From NCBI RefSeq assembly GCF_002288005.1, contig NZ_CP016771.1, forward strand, positions 310,001-374,000: a stretch of 64,000 bases of DNA. The letters are read 5' to 3'. Within the stretch, counting starts at the first letter, position 1; each line of letters begins with the position of its first letter. The notes beneath the pieces are model-generated. The model was not told where the DNA came from. It made no database searches and saw nothing but the letters and a program-made list of their open reading frames with translations. Shown here one piece after another: positions 5,998 to 49,246 of this stretch. The translations under genes and the position numbers were made by a program. Source of the DNA: Candidatus Nanopelagicus hibericus (GTDB lineage Bacteria > Actinomycetota > Actinomycetes > Nanopelagicales > Nanopelagicaceae).

Positions 5998-6891
5998 ATG
6001 GCGATCGCAGTTGAAGTATTTGATTCTAGATGCAATCAATTGGGTGAGGGTCCAACTGCCACTGGCAAAAATAACAATCAGGTTCAGTGGTGTGACATCT
6101 ATGGCAAAGCGGTTAGGTCAAAGGATTTACTCACTGGACAAAGTAGTGAGTACCTTGCCGATGAACATATTGGCTTTCAAATTCCAAGAAGTGTGGGCGG
6201 TGATATTTTAGGAACCGCTAACGGTCCGGTGCTGCGAGATGCAGATGGAGTAATTCGCAAATTACCAACTCGGGCAGATGTAGATGGTGATAACTATGCA
6301 GGGGTAATTCGCTGGAATGATGCCAAAGTTTCACCAGATGGAGATCTCTTTCTTGGCTCAATGGCATATGAAAATCAAAGTGATCAGGGAGCGCTTTATC
6401 GTTTAAGCAAAGATGGCAAAAAGCTAACAAAGTTATTTGGTTCAGTTGGTATATCAAATGGTATGGATTGGTCAGTAGATAAAAGCAGAATGTTTTATAT
6501 TGACACTTTAACGCTGCGGGTTGATCAATTTGATTATCTCAATGGTGAAATTTCAAATAGAAGGCCATTGGTACAGGTAACAGAGGGTATGGGATATCCA
6601 GATGGAATGTGCTCAGATGCGAACGATAATCTTTGGGTAGCATTTTGGTTAGGCTCTTGTGTCAGATGCTTTGATGGTAAAACTGGTAAGCAACTTGAGG
6701 AAATAAAATTACCCACTCAGAAAATTACCTCCTGTGTATTTGCGGGAGAAAAGCTTGATCAACTAATTATTACCTCAGCCGTTGGAAACCCAGGAGAACA
6801 GGTTGATTTAGATGCGTTTCCACAAGCAGGTATGACATTTATTGCCACCCCTGGGGTAGTGGGTAAAAAAACAAACTTATTTGGTGCCTAA
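5998..6891 (+). CDS. SMP-30/gluconolactonase family sugar lactone hydrolase
   Basis: A 297-residue six-bladed beta-propeller of the SMP-30/gluconolaconase/LRE family. The divalent metal ligands can be aligned: E17 in LGEGP, N107 in RWNDAKVSPDG, N154 in ISNGMDWS and D202 in YPDGM. Family members hydrolyse aldonolactones produced by sugar dehydrogenases to the open aldonate. No signal peptide, so cytoplasmic. Its place between the permeases and a KDG-type kinase fits the lactonase step of a sugar oxidation pathway in which one of the downstream SDRs makes the lactone. Substrate could be glucono-, galactono- or another lactone. Confidence 0.88.
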   Translation: MAIAVEVFDSRCNQLGEGPTATGKNNNQVQWCDIYGKAVRSKDLLTGQSSEYLADEHIGFQIPRSVGGDILGTANGPVLRDADGVIRKLPTRADVDGDNYAGVIRWNDAKVSPDGDLFLGSMAYENQSDQGALYRLSKDGKKLTKLFGSVGISNGMDWSVDKSRMFYIDTLTLRVDQFDYLNGEISNRRPLVQVTEGMGYPDGMCSDANDNLWVAFWLGSCVRCFDGKTGKQLEEIKLPTQKITSCVFAGEKLDQLIITSAVGNPGEQVDLDAFPQAGMTFIATPGVVGKKTNLFGA

Positions 6892-35494: not shown

Positions 35495-35956
35495 TTAATT
35501 CAATCTTGCATAGGTAGTGCTCAAGTAGCTAGCGGTAATTACCCAGAGTTGATATGGAATTACTGCAAAAAATAATGGAATTGAAGCTTGATAGATAAAG
35601 TAAAGCATTGGCAGGGTTAATAGTGCTACAAAGCAAAGTGCGATTGAGGCAGCATATAAATTATGTGGTCGATAAAACTGAAAAGCCCAGGTGAGTGCGC
35701 AAGCAACAGAGAGAGCAAAGATAGAAAGGTAAATAATGGCATTTGTAGTACTTAATTTATTTGCCACATATACAGCAGCAAAACCTAAAATAGCAAAGTT
35801 ATATGGCCAGATAATGCCAAAGATGAAATCAGGTGGCTGCCAACTTGGTTGATTTAATGAGCGATACCAGCCATCACGGGTGTTTACCCAAAGCCCAGAA
35901 CCAACTACATAGACAAATACAAGACCAATACCAATTACTGAAAGCATTGATTTCAT
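35495..35956 (-). CDS. tspO: TspO/MBR family tryptophan-rich sensory protein
   Basis: A 153-residue protein with five membrane helices. SLNQPSWQPPDFIFGIIWP is the typical first loop, with later conserved W residues (ALTWAFQFYRPHN) and LWVITASYLSTTYARLN near the end. Bacterial TspO binds porphyrins and in photosynthetic and rhodopsin-bearing bacteria modulates responses to light and oxygen. It lies 5 bp after the photolyase gene on the same strand, so it shares its transcript. Confidence 0.92.
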   Translation of the reverse strand: MKSMLSVIGIGLVFVYVVGSGLWVNTRDGWYRSLNQPSWQPPDFIFGIIWPYNFAILGFAAVYVANKLSTTNAIIYLSIFALSVACALTWAFQFYRPHNLYAASIALCFVALLTLPMLYFIYQASIPLFFAVIPYQLWVITASYLSTTYARLN

Positions 35957-35961
35957 AGTGG

Positions 35962-37434
35962 TTAGATTAGCCCCTTATCTAATCCAGCAAGTACTGCTTG
36001 TGCTCGTTTTCTCACCTCAGGCATATCCTTTAATCTTTTAATTCCAAATAACTGCTGCGCCATCCGATGATTTCCGACAAACTCCTCATGGTTTCTATCT
36101 AAGAAATCCCAGTACAAAGTTGTGAATGGGCAGGCATTTTCCCCGGTTCGAAGCTTTGGGTCATAAATGCAACCTTTGCAGTAATTACTCATCTTTGAAA
36201 TATAAGCACCTCCTGCTGCATATGGTTTTGTCATCATCACCCCGTTATCAGCATGCACACCCATACCAATTACATTTGGCACCATCACCCAATCACTTGC
36301 ATCAAGAAATACCCGGCGCATCCACTGCAGAAATTGTTGTGGATTAGTTCCAGTAATTAAGGCAAGATTACTTAGCAACATCAGCCGGGGGATATGGTGC
36401 ACCCAAGCACGTTCATTAATATCGGTAACAGTTTGCTTAATGCAATTCATTTTGGTCTTATCTGGATCGGTAAATAAAGGCAGAAGTTCACGTTTTGCTT
36501 TTAGATGATTTAGCTCTTTGTAATCCTCACCTAAGTGCCAATACATACCGTTGACGTACTCACGCCAGCCAATAATCTGGCGAATAAAGCCCTCAGCAGA
36601 GGCGATTGGAATATCACCTTTTTCAAATCTTTTTACCGCAGCATCCACCACCTCAGATGGATGAAGCAGACCATTATTAATATATGGACTAAGCAAGGAG
36701 TGATGCAGCGCCCAGTTATCACTAGTCATCGCATCCTCATATGGGCCAAAAAGTGCGAAATGTTTATCTAGAAAGTTTTTTAATACTTTTCTAGCACCAG
36801 CAGTACTAGTAGCCCAAATAGTGGCTGGCTTAATTCCTAACTCTGTAGCAATTCTTTTATCAATCTCATCTGCTTTATGTTCAAGATATGGTGGAAATTT
36901 ATATCCTTTTGGAAGGCTGGAGCGGTTTTCCTTATCAAAGTTCCAAGCCCCGCCAACTGGTTTGCCCTTCTCAACTAAGAGATTTAATCTTATTCGCTGA
37001 TTTCGATAGAAAGACTCCATTAAGTAACTCTTTTGTGATGAGGCCCATTGGGCAAATAAATCTGGTGGGGTTAAAAAGAAATCATTTTCAATAAATTTAA
37101 CACCAAACTCAGCCAATGATTTCTTTAATCTAAAGGAGGAGGGAGTGGCTGAAATTATAGGAAGTTTTGGATATTTCTTTAAGACCTCTTTTAGGCCATC
37201 AACTGTGGTTGCACTTTTTTGATAAATAACTGTATAGCCATCTGCTTGTAATGATTTAACAAAGTGGGCTGCGCTAGATAGTAAAAAGTAGAGCCGCACC
37301 TTATTCCAATGATCACCCGTTACCATTCGGGCGCTTTCAACTAAAACAATTAAATCTTCTTTAGGGTTAGCGTCCTTTAGCGCGCCATACTTGGCATTTA
37401 ATTGATCATGGCTTACATAAATTATGCGCTTCAT
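35962..37434 (-). CDS. phrB: FeS-type cryptochrome/(6-4) photolyase (PhrB/CryPro class)
   Basis: A 490-residue photolyase-related protein ([13 protein letters not shown] start). Four cysteines C331 (NCIKQ), C419 and C422 (YCKGC) and C435 (ACPF) have exactly the spacing known for the [4Fe-4S] ligands of Agrobacterium PhrB (350, 438, 441, 454, all shifted by 19). FAD-domain segments [19 protein letters not shown] and [14 protein letters not shown] are present. It repairs (6-4) photoproducts or acts as a light sensor, using FAD and a lumazine-type antenna. The ATG overlaps the stop of the DUF2256 gene by 4 bp, which fixes the start. Confidence 0.93.
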
Positions 37435-37565
37435 TTGCCGCCACATCTTTTAGAGCAGTACTTAACATTCTCCCAATTTTTGGCCCACTTTTTGCGCCAC
37501 TCAAACTCTAAGTTGCAGGTATGACAAACCTTTGGCTGGAAACCATTTTTCACCTTTGCCCGCAT
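37431..37565 (-). CDS. DUF2256 zinc-ribbon-like microprotein, photolyase partner
   Basis: A 44-residue protein from ATG at 37565 to TGA at 37431-37433. It carries CHTC (C14, C17) and YCSKRC (C37, C41), a probable zinc site, around a [14 protein letters not shown] segment that is the hallmark of DUF2256. The family is commonly encoded next to FeS-BCP photolyases. The stop overlaps the photolyase start as ATGA. Function unknown; possibly a folding or cofactor factor for the photolyase. Confidence 0.85.
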
Positions 37566-38128: not shown

Positions 38129-39733
38129 TTAGTAGATACTGCTCCAATCATTGACCTTCATTACATACCACTGACCACCTTCAATTGCATTTGCAATATC
38201 AGCTGGTGCTGGCACTAAATCAGGACGTGATTTAGCAGGAGTTGCGTGGATCTGTGCCACCATCATGTAGTACTTAGCTTTATCACTCTTACCAGTTCGA
38301 AGGTATGAAGTAACATCAACAATTCCACTTGACTCTTCATCTTGAGTGATAAAGGTTGTTGTGTTTGCTGAGATGAAGTAAGTATCTTTAAATTTCGCAA
38401 TAGTTGCTAATTTGCCATCTGAGATACGGTATGAAACAACTCTGGCAACCAGAGCGTTATTACCTGGATCTTCTTGAATCAAGATATTACCGACGTCATC
38501 CACCACGATGTTATCTGGCTTTGATAGGTAAGGTGCCTCTGAGCCATCTAGCAACATTGTTAGGGTTCCACCCTTAGTTGGATTGTTTACATCAACAAAT
38601 CGCAATCTCCAAAGTGCTCCGCCATCGCGGGATACGGTTGGAGTTGCAGGATTTGGCGCAGTCGCCTTTGGATCCTTATTTGATTCAGTAGTTACAAAGT
38701 AGTAATCATTTGGCTTCTTTGGATCAAAATGACCATCCTCAACTCGAGCCAGGGTCATACCCAACTCACGAGCCTTATCATTTTGTAACTTACCATTTTG
38801 CTTGTAATCAATCACCTTAAATGAGGCTGGTGCTTCTACTCCCTTTGCATACTTTGCGCGGAAGGCGTTGTCATTTAATACATCTGATGCCATCACATAA
38901 AGCTTGCCGTTTGTAAGACCTGCTTTTTCATACCACTCACCAGTTTTTGTCTTGGTGCCGGCATACATAAATAATTGGCTATCAGTTGCTGCGCCATCCT
39001 CATTACCCATTACTACTGTGGCATTTGAGGTAGTTGGTGCGTTAACAAAGGTTTCCCAAGCAGCTAAACCAAAGCCTGGAACCTGAACAAACTCACCATC
39101 TTGATTGCCAGCAAAGCCGCGAGATTCATCTCCGCCTTCTTCACCAGTTAGATAGACCGCACCTTTGTAGCCAAGACCTGTCTTCTTGTTATAGAACTCA
39201 CCAGCATCTGCCAAAGTTGAAGAACAGAAACGATTGATCAAATATGAGTGAGCACTTGATCCATATTGATCAACTAGTACCGCACCAGCTGGAGCAGTTG
39301 GTACTACGCCAAAACTACCGGTTTGGTAGTCATACCACTCAACCCACTCCATAAAATCTTTACCAGCCACAATCGCTTTTTTCTTTAGGTCATAATGCAT
39401 TTCACTGACATATGAACCAGTTGTCATACCGGCAGTTGAAGCACGAGCTGCTGCAATTGGATTTGCATTGCTCCACTCATGGTTGGTTACGACCCGTAGT
39501 TTTCCATTAACAGGAATTACACCCATACCATCTGGAATACCACCGATTAAATATCCACCAATTGAATCACCAGCGGTTGCAAATGGATCCAGGCTAACTC
39601 CTGCAGCTACTGGCTCCATGTAGGTAATACCTGCAGCAGCATTAGCTGGCAGGATTGATGAGAATAATGAGATTGTTGAGATGAAAAGTACCGCTTTGAA
39701 TTTTGCTTTTTTGTAGCTCTTAATTTTAAACAC
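38129..39733 (-). CDS. phoX: PhoX-like secreted phosphatase (DUF839)
   Basis: A 534-residue secreted protein with a Lys-rich signal peptide ending LPANAAAG (about 33). DUF839/PhoX features: TNHEWSNANPIAAARASTAG, LVDQYGSSAHSYLINRFCSS, YLTGEEGGDESRGFAGNQDG, and KPDNIVVDDVGNILIQEDPGNN, consistent with the calcium/iron-bound beta-propeller active site. It hydrolyses phosphomonoesters outside the cell to supply phosphate. Unlike classical PhoX its signal lacks a twin-arginine pair and looks Sec-type. Palindromic elements upstream may mediate phosphate control. Confidence 0.88.
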   Translation of the reverse strand: MFKIKSYKKAKFKAVLFISTISLFSSILPANAAAGITYMEPVAAGVSLDPFATAGDSIGGYLIGGIPDGMGVIPVNGKLRVVTNHEWSNANPIAAARASTAGMTTGSYVSEMHYDLKKKAIVAGKDFMEWVEWYDYQTGSFGVVPTAPAGAVLVDQYGSSAHSYLINRFCSSTLADAGEFYNKKTGLGYKGAVYLTGEEGGDESRGFAGNQDGEFVQVPGFGLAAWETFVNAPTTSNATVVMGNEDGAATDSQLFMYAGTKTKTGEWYEKAGLTNGKLYVMASDVLNDNAFRAKYAKGVEAPASFKVIDYKQNGKLQNDKARELGMTLARVEDGHFDPKKPNDYYFVTTESNKDPKATAPNPATPTVSRDGGALWRLRFVDVNNPTKGGTLTMLLDGSEAPYLSKPDNIVVDDVGNILIQEDPGNNALVARVVSYRISDGKLATIAKFKDTYFISANTTTFITQDEESSGIVDVTSYLRTGKSDKAKYYMMVAQIHATPAKSRPDLVPAPADIANAIEGGQWYVMKVNDWSSIY

Positions 39734-42359: not shown

Positions 42360-43103
42360 ATGAAGCTTGGGGCAAGGATGGTACTTACACCAGTAATTAC
42401 CACTGCGCTGCTTATGCAACCACAAACCGCTTACGCCCACCAGCCAGTTGATTTGGGATTAAAAAATATTACCGCTGACCAAGGACCAATTTTAGCCGAT
42501 GGCACTGTCTCCTTCGCAATCAGAGCAAATTTTACTAAAGCTAATCAAACCAGAGGCTTTAGAGCAGTATTGAAATCATCTGAGCTTCTTAATTTTGAGT
42601 ATCTTATTGTTGATAGAGCGCCTGAGAATAAATATGCAATGAGTAAATTACCCATCGCCACAATTACCTATCCATCTGGTAAGCAGGTGGTGGTTAAACT
42701 TAATGAACGAAGTAAGTTTTTTGAGCCATACAGCAGCACCAATTACCTATACCTTGGCAGATTTTCTGAAACCGCCGAGGCTGGCATCTATAAAATAAGT
42801 ATTAAATCAAAGAGTGCTGCCAAGATAACGGTGGCAATTGGTCAACAAGAGATTAGAGGTCAGGTGCTGCCCGCCGCTACCTGCCCAATCAGCAGAGCAG
42901 CAGGAGATATCAGTGTTGGTGAAGCTGCCACCTTGGTGGGGATGAGTAAGAGTGCAGGATTAGAGTGCGCAACTAAGTTGAATTGGCAGTTTAGAGTTGG
43001 CGCCGAGGATGATCAGCAGTTCGCCCTAACTAAGGATTATCGATTGGATCGGGTAACAGTTACTATTAAAAATAACTTAATTACCCAAGCTATCCCTGGT
43101 TAG
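42360..43103 (+). CDS. Secreted protein with I78-like peptidase-inhibitor C-terminus
   Basis: A 247-residue protein with a signal peptide (about 1-26, QTAYAHQ). The middle (30-170) is beta-rich and unrecognised. The last 60 residues, with AATLVGMSKSAGLECA, FRVGAEDDQQFALTKDYRLDRVTVTI and KNNLITQAIPG, resemble the inhibitor I78 / potato inhibitor I fold, including the exposed acidic loop before DYRxDR. If so, it may protect the envelope from serine proteases such as those encoded further right. Two cysteines (C179 region and the second near 198) could form a disulfide. Moderate confidence on the domain. Confidence 0.6.
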   Translation: MKLGARMVLTPVITTALLMQPQTAYAHQPVDLGLKNITADQGPILADGTVSFAIRANFTKANQTRGFRAVLKSSELLNFEYLIVDRAPENKYAMSKLPIATITYPSGKQVVVKLNERSKFFEPYSSTNYLYLGRFSETAEAGIYKISIKSKSAAKITVAIGQQEIRGQVLPAATCPISRAAGDISVGEAATLVGMSKSAGLECATKLNWQFRVGAEDDQQFALTKDYRLDRVTVTIKNNLITQAIPG

Positions 43104-43558
43104 GTATTTATAGCCTCACTCGCCTCAATAACAGAGGCAGCTACTACACCTAACTGCAGCTGCTCAATCTCTAGTTTGTATAACAAAAGATAATTACCTC
43201 TTGAATCAACTACCTCAACGCCTTGGCTCACACCAGATGATGTGATCTTGCAATTTTTAAAGGTAAAACCTTGGTTATTAATTAACATTTGATACTGAGC
43301 TGCGATTATCGCGGTGAATTGTTCTAGTTTGATTGAGTTTTGAAATGATTGCGCTGCGTAGGTATAAGCCTTTGACCAATCTTCGGCGGAGATCGCATTT
43401 ATCTGCCCAGTTATGTGTTTTTCAACCGCCACCTGCTGCGTATCACTGCAATCACCTGCAGATAAGGACTCAAACGGTGATGGGCTGCTGCAACTTGTAA
43501 GCAGCGCTGATGCCAATACAAGTTTGATACCGAGCCCTTGCTTGGTGAGGGATTTCAT
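43100..43558 (-). CDS. Putative lipoprotein, DUF4864-like
   Basis: A 152-residue protein with a lipobox LLTSC (C23) after a Leu/Ala-rich signal. The mature part AISAEDWSKAYTYAAQSFQNSI with KLEQFTAIIAAQYQMLI resembles DUF4864/NTF2-like small extracytoplasmic domains. No function known. It is convergent with the I78-like protein gene, overlapping by 4 bp. Confidence 0.65.
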   Translation of the reverse strand: MKSLTKQGLGIKLVLASALLTSCSSPSPFESLSAGDCSDTQQVAVEKHITGQINAISAEDWSKAYTYAAQSFQNSIKLEQFTAIIAAQYQMLINNQGFTFKNCKITSSGVSQGVEVVDSRGNYLLLYKLEIEQLQLGVVAASVIEASEAINT

Positions 43559-43635: not shown

Positions 43636-44118
43636 ATGAAAAAGGACACAACGCCAAAAGATCAACAGGTTGAAACCTCCATTTTGCCGATCAAATATGT
43701 TGATTTAATTGAGGATGTATTTCACGCAGTACTGGCCCTGGCTTTACTGGGAATTGGCATTGGCGCTTTTATCTTTAGTATCAAGCGTTTAATTGAAACA
43801 GATCCATTTTTCCCAAACGGCATGATTCAAGGTGTTAATGACATTCTATTTATTGTAATTATTTTAGAAATCTTGCGCACAGTAATATCTAGATTTACCG
43901 ATGGTGTTTATCAATTAGATAAGTTTTTAATAATTGGAGTTATTGCCGCGGTGCGACACATTTTGACGGTAGGTGCCTCACTCACACTTGAGTCAGGTAA
44001 GAGTGATGAAGCCTTTGATCGATCTATCTATGAGATGGGGCTGAACGCACTAATTGTGGTGGCCTTAGTCTTTGCCTTCTTCTTATCTAAATCAGCACTT
44101 CGTAACTCACAAAGGTAA
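43636..44118 (+). CDS. psiE: PsiE-family phosphate-starvation membrane protein
   Basis: A 160-residue protein with four membrane helices (about 28-50, 66-86, 98-116 and 137-155). The segments IEDVFHAVLALALLGIGIG, ILFIVIILEILRTV and KFLIIGVIAAVRHILTVG are characteristic of PsiE. The family is induced by phosphate limitation in enterobacteria; molecular role unknown. A phoX gene 4 kb away fits a phosphate theme. A GCAGGTGAAA word lies in its upstream region (about 43600). Confidence 0.85.
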   Translation: MKKDTTPKDQQVETSILPIKYVDLIEDVFHAVLALALLGIGIGAFIFSIKRLIETDPFFPNGMIQGVNDILFIVIILEILRTVISRFTDGVYQLDKFLIIGVIAAVRHILTVGASLTLESGKSDEAFDRSIYEMGLNALIVVALVFAFFLSKSALRNSQR

Positions 44119-44119
44119 G

Positions 44120-44242
44120 TTACTCAAAATCTCCACCACGACCAGTTAAATCTGGCTTTTCTTTTTTGTTTGACTCATATTTAAATATAAAAAACAAAAC
44201 AATGGCGGTGAAGGCTACGATAAGAATAAAACCTATCTCCAT
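44120..44242 (-). CDS. 40-residue single-pass membrane microprotein
   Basis: ATG at 44242 to TAA at 44120-44122 encodes MEIGFILIVAFTAIVLFFIF followed by a charged tail KYESNKKEKPDLTGRGGDFE. One N-terminal membrane helix and a hydrophilic cytoplasmic tail with a conserved-looking DLTGRGGDFE end. The start lies behind GGTGAAG. It follows the 3-helix protein downstream of heliorhodopsin by 41 bp on the same strand. The composition is protein-like and the frame is clean, so it is likely real; function unknown. Confidence 0.6.
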   Translation of the reverse strand: MEIGFILIVAFTAIVLFFIFKYESNKKEKPDLTGRGGDFE

Positions 44243-44283
44243 CACTTCACCGCCCTTAATAATTAAAGCTTAATCGCTATTAC

Positions 44284-44658
44284 TTAAGCTAAAACCATCC
44301 ACACGACTAGTGCAAATATGGCTAGACCTGAACCAACAATTGCGATCGCAGAAAGTGAGAGCAATCCACGACTGGATGCAATCACCTTGGCTAAGTTGCT
44401 AGGAGATGAAACCTTTGCTAGATCTGCAAGTAATGCTTCACCTTCACGCACTGCTGCGTATTGGCTAATAATTGCCAAGATGCCAGTTACTGCCACGATT
44501 CCTAATGTTGCATACTTAGTTGCATCTGATGCACCTTCAAATTTTCCAAAGGTAGCGGCAATAACTACACCAACTAGCACTAATGATGGCGCCATTTGAG
44601 CATTGATGATTTGGCTACGCATCTGATTCCATTGATTAATTAATTTTTCTTGATCCAT
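44284..44658 (-). CDS. Unknown three-helix membrane protein downstream of heliorhodopsin
   Basis: A 124-residue protein starting at the ATG of MDQEKLINQW, with a strong GGAGAG ribosome binding site eight bases upstream. A short amphipathic N-terminus (NQWNQMRSQIINAQMAPS) precedes three membrane helices (about 19-37, 50-70 and 101-123) with a conserved-looking cytoplasmic loop AVREGEALLADLAKVSSPSN. No known domain. A longer frame to 44700 exists but runs through the ribosome binding site. The gap of 138 bp from the heliorhodopsin stop contains AGTTCACCT-type words and could hold its own promoter. Confidence 0.7.
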   Translation of the reverse strand: MDQEKLINQWNQMRSQIINAQMAPSLVLVGVVIAATFGKFEGASDATKYATLGIVAVTGILAIISQYAAVREGEALLADLAKVSSPSNLAKVIASSRGLLSLSAIAIVGSGLAIFALVVWMVLA

Positions 44659-44796
44659 TGATTTCTCTCCTACTTGACTTAGTTCACCTTTAGGTAACAC
44701 ATTTGGTCACCTGTGATTTTTAAATATACACCCAAGCCAAATAAAGGTCAGCCGGCAGTTGGTTAAATCTTTGTGAATTAGGTCAACATCCCAGGT

Positions 44797-45564
44797 TTAG
44801 GCAGGTGGTATCAAGGTATTGGCAAAGATCTGCCAAGAAAGGGCTGATTTTGCCACCAGTGACAAGGTGATGTAGGTGGCCTCACCACGTAGGTAATCAC
44901 TCCACTTACCAACCTTTTTGTACTGCAGATACTGCACAAGTGCAAAGGAGTTAAAGAACAAAAAGATAGTTAGCACAATTACGTATACAAAGGCAGGTGC
45001 CTTAGTCTCACCAGCGCCACCAATACCAAATACATAAAAGCAAAGTGCAAGCCATGGAACAGCCCCGGTTATGCAACCAAAGATAAATGGCAGCCAACCA
45101 CCATTTCCTGGGTTCTCATACTTCTCCTGCAACCAGCCAAATAAGATCATTGATGCATTTACACCAAAGATCGAGATGATTGCAGTTATATCTGCAATAC
45201 CTGTCACCTGAGCAATTAAAACAATCATTACCGATGAGCTAATTGAGTACTCAACCCAGCGGAAGTAATTGCGCTGGGCGAGTAGGCCGGCAGAGTAACG
45301 GGGGAAAAACTTTGGCGATGCCACAATAAAATGTGCCAGCGCAGATAAACCTAAGAATATTGCCACAGTTAGACCTATTGGAGTTTCAAATAAAGTTACC
45401 GGTGGAGCATAGGTTGTGCCTGGAGGCCCTGACATATAGGTAGCAGTTATTGGTAGTGAGAAGTCACTGCTTAGGGCTAGAACTGCTGCCATTTGGGCTA
45501 GATGAAGAATGCCTGCATAGATATTGGTTTTGCGTAATCTTTCAGCGGTTAAAGGTTTACTCAT
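44797..45564 (-). CDS. Heliorhodopsin
   Basis: A 255-residue seven-helix protein closely related to the 48C12 heliorhodopsin first found in a freshwater actinobacterial fosmid. The retinal Schiff-base lysine is K239 in LSLVAKSALSWQ, the counterion is E105 in FRWVEYSISSS, and the internal histidines H21 and H78 occupy the expected places. The GPPGTTY loop after helix A and NASMILFGWLQEKYE in helix D are shared with the family. Heliorhodopsins have an inverted topology (N-terminus inside), a slow photocycle and no clear pump activity; a sensory or enzyme-regulating role is suspected. No carotenoid/retinal synthesis gene is visible in the window. Confidence 0.96.
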   Translation of the reverse strand: MSKPLTAERLRKTNIYAGILHLAQMAAVLALSSDFSLPITATYMSGPPGTTYAPPVTLFETPIGLTVAIFLGLSALAHFIVASPKFFPRYSAGLLAQRNYFRWVEYSISSSVMIVLIAQVTGIADITAIISIFGVNASMILFGWLQEKYENPGNGGWLPFIFGCITGAVPWLALCFYVFGIGGAGETKAPAFVYVIVLTIFLFFNSFALVQYLQYKKVGKWSDYLRGEATYITLSLVAKSALSWQIFANTLIPPA

Positions 45565-45720: not shown

Positions 45721-45990
45721 TTGACAAATAATTTTGTGGCGCATAATATAGCCCCTGACCAGGTTAGATTTACCCAATCAGCCAGGAAACATCGGATTGG
45801 CAGGGCTCGGGCACTTTATGTGTTGGAGCATTACCTACCGATTCCGGTGTTGGATGGTGAAAGAACTGATCAAAGTTTTCGCTGGATTGGCAAAGATGAC
45901 CGAGGCATTGAGATTGAAATTATTGCGGTGGCAACACCACAATATTTATTGGTGATTCATGTTATGCCTTACCGATATAGGAGGAAGTGA
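45721..45990 (+). CDS. Putative toxin of a type II TA pair
   Basis: An 89-residue basic protein starting with TTG (a GTG five codons in is possible). It has a compact alpha/beta layout: FTQSARKHRIGRARALYVLE helix, RWIGKDDRGIEIEIIAVATP beta hairpin, then LVIHVMPYRYRRK strand with a basic tail. This layout resembles BrnT/RelE-like ribonuclease toxins, though I could not assign a named family. Its stop overlaps by one base the start of a ribbon-helix-helix protein, the usual toxin-first or BrnT-BrnA arrangement. Confidence 0.62.
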   Translation: MTNNFVAHNIAPDQVRFTQSARKHRIGRARALYVLEHYLPIPVLDGERTDQSFRWIGKDDRGIEIEIIAVATPQYLLVIHVMPYRYRRK

Positions 45991-46280
45991 TGGCTAGAAG
46001 TACTCAGTATCGCTTGGGTAAGGATGTAAATCTTAAGAAAGAGATTGTCAGAGATCTTTCTGGCCGTAGGATTACTGATCGACGAGTAAAGCAGATTGTT
46101 AAAGAGGTAAGACAGAAAACAGCTGGTAGACCTTCATTAACCAAGCCAAATGTAATTTCACCAGAGGTTAAGGCTCGGGTACCAATCCAATTAAAGAGAG
46201 CATTAGATCGCAAAGCGGTTCAAAGCGGCAAAAGCCCATCGCAGCTTATTAGAGCAGCGCTTGAGAGGTACTTACTTTGA
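45990..46280 (+). CDS. Ribbon-helix-helix antitoxin-like protein
   Basis: A 96-residue basic protein, ATG at 45990 overlapping the toxin stop (TGATG), preceded by AGGAGGAAG. The last 35 residues, ARVPIQLKRALDRKAVQSGK then SPSQLIRAALERYL, are a CopG/RHH DNA-binding domain. The N-terminal 60 residues (LGKDVNLKKEIVRDLSGRRITDRR) are basic and could contact the toxin or DNA. It would neutralise the toxin and repress the operon. The RHH call is firm; the antitoxin role is inferred from context. Confidence 0.7.
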   Translation: MARSTQYRLGKDVNLKKEIVRDLSGRRITDRRVKQIVKEVRQKTAGRPSLTKPNVISPEVKARVPIQLKRALDRKAVQSGKSPSQLIRAALERYLL

Positions 46281-46705
46281 TTAAGAAATTACTACAACTC
46301 TCACTCGGTGCCTTCCTCACCTCGGCCGGCACCTCCCACCTTGGATCAAACCGAAAAGAGTTCCTAGCCCAAGTACCCACCTGGTTACCCCTAAATGCAG
46401 ATTTTGTAGTTATTGCCTCTGGTTTAGTGGAGATAGCACTTGGTATCTCATTAATTACCACCACATTTATTTTTACCAAATTTCGCCGGCAGGTCGGTAT
46501 TACGGTTGCAGTATTTTTCATTCTGATTTTCCCAGGAAACATTAATCAGTATCTAAATCAGATTGATGCCTTTGGCTTAGATACCGATCAAAAGCGGCTA
46601 ATACGTTTATTTTTCCAACCTCTCTTGGTGCTTTGGGCGTTATGGAGCATGAATGTTATTAGGCTCACAAAAAAATCAAATAAGAACCAACTTTCCTCTC
46701 GGTAA
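46277..46705 (+). CDS. DoxX-like membrane protein
   Basis: A 142-residue protein starting TTG, overlapping the previous stop by 4 bp. It has four membrane helices with the DoxX-like opening LLQLSLGAFLTSAGTSHLG, then ASGLVEIALGISLITTTF, and PGNINQYLNQIDAFGLDTDQ between helices 3 and 4. DoxX/MauE-type proteins are linked to quinone, thiol or oxidative-stress chemistry. Substrate unknown. Confidence 0.75.
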   Translation: MIKKLLQLSLGAFLTSAGTSHLGSNRKEFLAQVPTWLPLNADFVVIASGLVEIALGISLITTTFIFTKFRRQVGITVAVFFILIFPGNINQYLNQIDAFGLDTDQKRLIRLFFQPLLVLWALWSMNVIRLTKKSNKNQLSSR

Positions 46706-48234: not shown

Positions 48235-48339
48235 ATGGCTGAAATTGGGCAACCAGATCGAGTGGTGCGCCGTGAGCGTGAGCCAGCAATCTCACCAGCC
48301 CTGCCAGTGCCTGCACCAGAGCTTGAGCCAGTTAAGTAA
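48235..48339 (+). CDS. 34-residue Pro/Glu-rich peptide
   Basis: ATG at 48235 to TAA at 48337-48339 encodes MAEIGQPDRVVRREREPAIS followed by a Pro-rich tail ending PELEPVK. An AAAGGA ribosome binding site lies nine bases upstream. It has no hydrophobic segment and looks disordered. The clean Shine-Dalgarno, codon pattern and protein-like composition argue it is real; it overlaps the end of the convergent DCC gene by 8 bp. Function unknown. Confidence 0.55.
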   Translation: MAEIGQPDRVVRREREPAISPALPVPAPELEPVK

Positions 48340-48685
48340 TTCTTTTAATAAATCTAGATAACACACTGACCAACACTGATTGCCTATTTCCGGCAATCAT
48401 TTTGTAGCCAAGTGCGCCAATAGGACCTAATACTCTAAGTAAAAAAGTGCTCACCTTATTACCACGTGCATTAAGTAAAAAGGTCACCGCAGTAATCCCA
48501 CCATATTTTTTATCACCAGATATGGCGTAAACCTGCTTCTCACACTGCGCAATTGTTAAGCCAAATTTTGCAAGGGGTGCGCTTTGATAGGCAATCGCAT
48601 CAAAGGTTAGTTTTTTGGAGAGCCAATTTATGGAGTTGATACACAACTGACAATTACCATCAAAGATAACGGTAATACCGCTCAT
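48332..48685 (-). CDS. DCC-family (DUF393) thiol-disulfide oxidoreductase-like protein
   Basis: A 117-residue protein. FDGNCQLCINSINWL carries the DxxCxxC motif near residues 9-15 that names the family. YGGITAVTFLL and PIGALGYKMIAGNR are the usual downstream segments. Thioredoxin-like fold, probable redox role; substrate unknown. Confidence 0.88.
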   Translation of the reverse strand: MSGITVIFDGNCQLCINSINWLSKKLTFDAIAYQSAPLAKFGLTIAQCEKQVYAISGDKKYGGITAVTFLLNARGNKVSTFLLRVLGPIGALGYKMIAGNRQSVLVSVLSRFIKRIT

Positions 48686-48778: not shown

Positions 48779-49246
48779 TTGAAAAACCTTACTGATTTTA
48801 AAAACTTTAATCTCAAGCAGTTTGATACCTTGCTTATCAACTACCTAAGCAAGATCTCACTGCCAGTACTTAGAGTCTCACTGGGAATAGTTTTTATCTG
48901 GTTTGGCGCTCTTAAGCCCTTTGGTAACTCATCAGCTAATGATGTAATAACTAAAACTATTTACTGGTTTGATCCAGATATCTTTATTCCGATACTTGGC
49001 TACTGGGAGATGCTAATTGGGCTCTGTCTGCTCTACGCTCCATTGATTCGAATTGGGCTTTTCTTATTGGCACTGCAAATGCCCGGCACCTTTCTGCCGC
49101 TTATCCTGCGCCCTGAAATCTGTTTTGTTGAATTTCCATTTGTTCTCACCCTGGAGGGTCAGTACATCATCAAAAACTTAGTATTAATTGGCGCAGCGAT
49201 GGTGGTAGGCAGCAAGCTGGTGCCGATATTAGAAAAGGATAAGTAA
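48779..49246 (+). CDS. DoxX/YkgB-like membrane protein
   Basis: A 155-residue protein with a TTG start behind AAGGAG. Four membrane helices; LRVSLGIVFIWFGALKPF, DIFIPILGYWEMLIGLCLLY and GQYIIKNLVLIGAAMVVGSK are typical of DoxX-like/DUF417 proteins. It lies next to a DCC protein and near another DoxX-like gene, suggesting a redox or quinone theme. Function unknown. Confidence 0.78.
   Translation: MKNLTDFKNFNLKQFDTLLINYLSKISLPVLRVSLGIVFIWFGALKPFGNSSANDVITKTIYWFDPDIFIPILGYWEMLIGLCLLYAPLIRIGLFLLALQMPGTFLPLILRPEICFVEFPFVLTLEGQYIIKNLVLIGAAMVVGSKLVPILEKDK

Follow-up and report, generated by a model that had tools for sequence, protein, structure and literature searches.

The small membrane protein pair P2-P3 beside heliorhodopsin in Candidatus Nanopelagicus hibericus follows photolyase and PsiE more closely than heliorhodopsin across related genomes

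Heliorhodopsin and two small genes at the locus

The window analyzed here is a stretch of 64,000 nucleotides (G000:C1:310001-374000) from the complete 1.22-Mb genome of Candidatus Nanopelagicus hibericus. On its minus strand, positions 44797-45564 encode a heliorhodopsin (HeR) of 255 residues. Its assignment to the 48C12 type, proposed in a first-pass annotation, was borne out: the product matched the Pfam heliorhodopsin profile over its full length (PF18761, E 6.9e-97, profile positions 1-242 of 242), the NCBIfam HeR profile (E 3.5e-102) and the crystal structure of 48C12 (6su3, E 1.8e-107), and both the retinal-binding lysine K239 and the glutamate counterion E105 are present. Compared with 48C12 and with the HeRs of acI actinobacteria such as IMCC26103, it is a plain member of the family. 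Five genomes (G016, G040, G045, G106 and G135) carry two HeR genes each, the second being about 40% identical to the window HeR where compared. In several genomes of the window's genus (L066-L070), HeR is located near riboflavin genes named by eye as ribD, ribE, ribBA and ribH; lumazine and flavin are cofactors of photolyases. The usual divergent neighbor of HeR in this genus, a MauE/DoxX-like membrane protein recognized by family match (46277-46705, plus strand), is separated from HeR in the window by a toxin-like (phrog_36779) and ribbon-helix-helix antitoxin-like pair (45721-45990 and 45987-46280, both plus strand), and the same insertion was observed in G091.

Downstream of HeR, on the same strand and after an intergenic distance of 138 bp that agrees with the annotation, two small genes are found. 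The first, P2 (44284-44658, minus strand), starts at an ATG preceded by AGGAGAG and encodes a 124-residue membrane protein with three helices; the second, P3 (44120-44242, minus strand), encodes a single-pass protein of 40 residues. The description of both given by the annotation held, as did its statement that neither belongs to a known family, since no significant match was obtained for P2 or P3 against the Pfam, NCBIfam and PHROG profiles. Searches of the P2 homologues against Pfam gave weak and scattered matches only, and nothing significant was retrieved with the P2 profile among PDB sequences. AlphaFold modeled P2 confidently (pLDDT 94, pTM 0.78) as a three-helix bundle, for which Foldseek returned no match at E 0.001, while the best Z obtained with VIA-align, 12, is a value that common bundle arrangements also reach. 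Fold comparison was rejected as a guide to the identity of P2, because it retrieved generic helical bundles only and was hence uninformative.

P2 and P3 are real genes, with homologues across the order and a conserved motif in P3. Across 54 sequences, P2 has 17 invariant residues, including W10, R14, Q21, P24, Q66, Y67, R71, E72, D79 and S96. The C-terminus of P3 consists of an invariant GRGGDF with a near-invariant threonine in front of it and a basic stretch before. According to the positive-inside rule, the P3 C-terminus and the second loop of P2 are probably located in the cytoplasm.

Occurrence and genomic company of the P2-P3 pair

Homologues of P2 were detected in 56 of the 150 genomes of the order, paralogue-only matches and one genome (G070) being set aside, and strong matches to P3 in 54 of the 150. 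In loci showing both genes, P3 almost always comes immediately after P2: of 69 loci on 69 contigs of the genome collection, 68 have a gap of -4 to +13 nt and the remaining one has 36 nt. With 41 nt, the window has a longer gap than usual. This near-overlap of the two genes suggests that they may be produced in equal amounts and that their products may form a complex. A sample of 246 genomes from elsewhere in the phylum yielded neither P2 nor P3, and viral contigs contained no relative of P2. P2-P3 is therefore a fixed gene pair, limited to the acI order in the genomes searched. A distant paralogue of P2 is encoded without P3 in G027 (L223 6574-10086), directly upstream of an actinorhodopsin gene and in a locus that also holds lycopene cyclase and beta-carotene dioxygenase genes; as it is a single case from one genome, it was set aside as evidence. 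In G072, a genome without P2, a 16-residue P3-like remnant (L233 near 6676-6723), possibly a decayed copy, lies by photolyase, DUF393 and MauE-like genes.

Across related genomes, P2-P3 follows photolyase and PsiE much more closely than HeR. The strongest co-occurrence was that with a DPRP/CryB-type photolyase-related protein, encoded in the window at 35962-37446 (minus strand; PF04244, E 4.5e-43), 7 kb away from the pair. This photolyase is present in 54 of the 56 P2 carriers (odds ratio 40, p 3e-13; as with all p-values of the co-occurrence analysis, the evidence is overstated because the genomes are related, many are incomplete and phylogeny is ignored) and in all 25 P2 carriers among the 67 best genomes. 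Where photolyase and P2 share a contig, they lie within 10 kb of each other in 28 of 35 cases. The second association is with a PsiE-family membrane protein identified with Pfam (43636-44118, plus strand), convergent with P3 in the window and an immediate neighbor of the pair in many relatives. PsiE occurs in 44/56 P2 carriers (odds ratio 25). In 19 of 27 same-contig genomes it is no more than 2 kb from P2, mostly just past P3 in convergent orientation, a tail-to-tail arrangement that recurs in several genera.

These genes belong to a wider island of light- and oxidative-stress genes. In the window, its members further include a TspO/MBR homologue (35495-35956, minus; family match), a DUF4864 lipoprotein-like protein (43100-43558, minus; Pfam), a DUF393/DCC1-like thiol oxidoreductase (48332-48685, minus; family match) and a DoxX-like membrane protein (48779-49246, plus; family match). 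A gene for a PhoX-family protein (38129-39733, minus) is located within the same region. Around P2 in 49 genomes, the families counted were photolyase (22), DUF393, MauE-like and a secreted 250-residue protein (19 each), PsiE (17), DUF2256 and SDR (12 each), HeR (11, a tally biased because the HeR-centered loci were chosen partly for their proximity to P2), DUF4864, UbiA and a 49-residue CDGSH-like protein (10 each) and TspO (8), the CDGSH-like and SDR names being assigned by eye. They occur in many orders and on both strands, heavily reshuffled. Such an island is compatible with published work: PMC8612252 describes acI transcripts that join HeR with peptidase and DUF393 protein genes, and HeR was reported to bind a class 2 CPD photolyase (PMC9769723).

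The reshuffling of gene order and strand could also be expected if P2-P3, photolyase, PsiE and HeR were unrelated accessory genes, hitchhiking in one flexible region of lineages from sunlit waters. In line with this explanation, all four correlate with actinorhodopsin, a marker of the photic zone. However, when actinorhodopsin-positive genomes alone were considered, P2 still tracked photolyase (odds ratio 56) and PsiE (odds ratio 23), which argues against habitat alone, and the recurrent convergent adjacency of P3 and PsiE likewise speaks against pure hitchhiking. Of the alternatives, it survives best, and we regard it as unlikely.

Relation to heliorhodopsin and transcription signals

The annotation had proposed that conserved small membrane neighbors of HeR may be its signaling partners. 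If P2 and P3 were dedicated to HeR, light-activated HeR would alter P2/P3, and the signal would be passed on via the cytoplasmic GRGGDF tail. Several observations favor such a link. HeR was detected in 103 of the 150 genomes and together with P2 in 51 (odds ratio 8), and in 11 genomes from six genera the distance between P2 and HeR is at most 10 kb, where fewer than one such genome would be expected from our own estimate. Direct adjacency on the same strand was found as HeR>P2>P3 in the window and in G117, and as P2>P3>HeR in G045. Besides, P2 still correlates with HeR when photolyase is given (p 0.002 over the full set and 0.03 over the best genomes), so that some, weaker link to HeR remains. 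However, these three genomes, with two gene orders, are the only ones with direct adjacency among about 55 carriers; 52 genomes contain HeR without the pair, and 5 genomes, all draft, contain the pair without detected HeR. On the 27 single contigs carrying both, HeR and P2 are at most 2 kb apart in 6 genomes, at most 10 kb in 11 and 11-165 kb in the others, with mixed gene order and strand. Of the 16 complete genomes, 14 show HeR and P2 more than 10 kb apart, with only the window and G010 within 10 kb; in complete Planktophila genomes, the spacing is 35-165 kb. Moreover, none of the 25 genomes that have HeR but neither photolyase nor PsiE carries P2, whereas it was present in 38 of the 43 genomes with photolyase, PsiE and HeR.

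Of the annotated picture, the conservation of the pair and a proximity to HeR above chance stood, while conserved adjacency and order, and a presence that tracks that of HeR, did not. The absence of the pair beside HeR in relatives, which the annotation had named as evidence against its proposal, is largely what was observed, and the signaling role is mostly refuted: P2-P3 is probably not a dedicated partner of HeR. The proximity above chance is instead explained by the membership of both in the same light-gene island. A broader scheme, in which P2, P3, PsiE, the CryB-type photolyase and HeR would form one acI light-response module, with a P2-P3 complex relaying or buffering a light or singlet-oxygen signal between photoreceptors and envelope, appears to us no less improbable than dedicated partnership.

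ASRT and HtrII are small rhodopsin transducers with genes beside those of their rhodopsins. The likeness to P2 and P3 lies in small products encoded beside a rhodopsin, but P2 and P3 match no known family or signaling domain and do not track HeR. In IMCC26103 (G012), P2-P3 is located about 119 kb from HeR, in contrast to its position downstream of HeR in the window; there, HeR adjoins a glutamine synthetase gene and was reported to bind glutamine synthetase (PMC9529153). In the available text of two surveys of HeR neighbors (PMC8612252, PMC11109279), the vicinity of HeR repeatedly includes genes for DUF393, peptidase, SDR and photolyase proteins, as it does in the window, and P2-P3 is not among the neighbor groups named. 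PMC8612252 applies a neighbor rule of <10 bp, which would miss the 138-bp gap between HeR and P2.

This gap holds a candidate promoter for P2-P3, CTGACC-N17-TATATT (44723-44751, minus strand), identified by consensus match only. Since promoter-like sites are no more numerous in the region than chance would give, support for the candidate comes from its recurrence in relatives: a TGTATATT element is also present upstream of P2 in G010, G018 and G120, genomes in which P2 does not directly follow HeR. In other genera, P2 promoters share a -10-like CTTAnCCT and a GC-centered upstream box. An island regulon based on a shared promoter motif was considered and dropped, as the regions before HeR, photolyase and the other families did not yield the motif. 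Closer to P2 lies a leader hairpin, AGGTGAC-CAAATGT-GTTACCT (44692-44712, minus strand). Over the set of relatives, a hairpin at -50 to -13 before P2 is conserved in structure while its sequence varies (combined p 6e-11, 50 loci); the window's hairpin taken singly was not significant. With the same test, neither positions more distant from P2 nor the leaders of HeR, photolyase, PsiE and the remaining island families included gave a signal. A score was also obtained for the LexA gene (p 0.006), which has a palindrome as its own operator. No Rfam match was obtained in window positions 30000-64000. Taken together, the candidate promoter and the leader hairpin favor a P2-P3 transcript separate from that of HeR, and the promoter-like site of P2 also argues against a dedicated partnership. 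A recent recruitment, by which a small subset of Nanopelagicus would have HeR and P2-P3 on one light-co-expressed transcript and the two would be independent elsewhere, agrees with the order shared by the window and G117 and with the lack of any terminator-like site found in the 138-bp gap, but is the least probable explanation given the candidate promoter and hairpin in that gap and the other genes between HeR and P2 in G010, of the same genus.

Proposed role of P2-P3

We consider it likely, with moderate confidence, that P2-P3 is an autonomous two-gene unit of the acI order (Nanopelagicales), encoding a small membrane complex within a reshuffled light/oxidative-stress island, and not an obligate partner of HeR. 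The complex would reside in the inner membrane and consist of the three-helix bundle of P2 and the single helix of P3, whose basic tail would probably expose the invariant GRGGDF on the cytoplasmic side. The island would comprise the CryB-type photolyase, PsiE, TspO, DoxX/MauE-like, DUF393 and DUF4864 proteins, joined by HeR in part of the order. The position of HeR beside P2-P3 in the window would thus stem from their shared membership of one island, without an obligate signaling pair being formed. Counting against this reading are the correlation of P2 with HeR that persists when photolyase is given, the unusually long P2-P3 gap of the window and the 7 kb that separate its photolyase from the pair. 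Judging from the gene company, that is photolyase, PsiE, TspO, DoxX and DUF393, P2-P3 may protect the membrane or take part in sensing there in sunlight, and would most likely do so together with PsiE. PsiE is among the proteins encoded by the locus of heat resistance of E. coli, a stress island (PMC7010813). The parallel of a small membrane protein in a stress island is a resemblance only: PsiE (PF06146) is a neighbor of P2, P2 itself has no PF06146 match, and the searched genomes show P2-P3 in acI alone.

These results remove P2-P3 from the list of obvious HeR partners. They also reveal a new lineage-specific pair of small proteins, linked with the CryB-type photolyase and PsiE and preceded by a leader hairpin. 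In lakes, acI actinobacteria rank among the most abundant cells, and the pair may bear on how these organisms sense or survive light.
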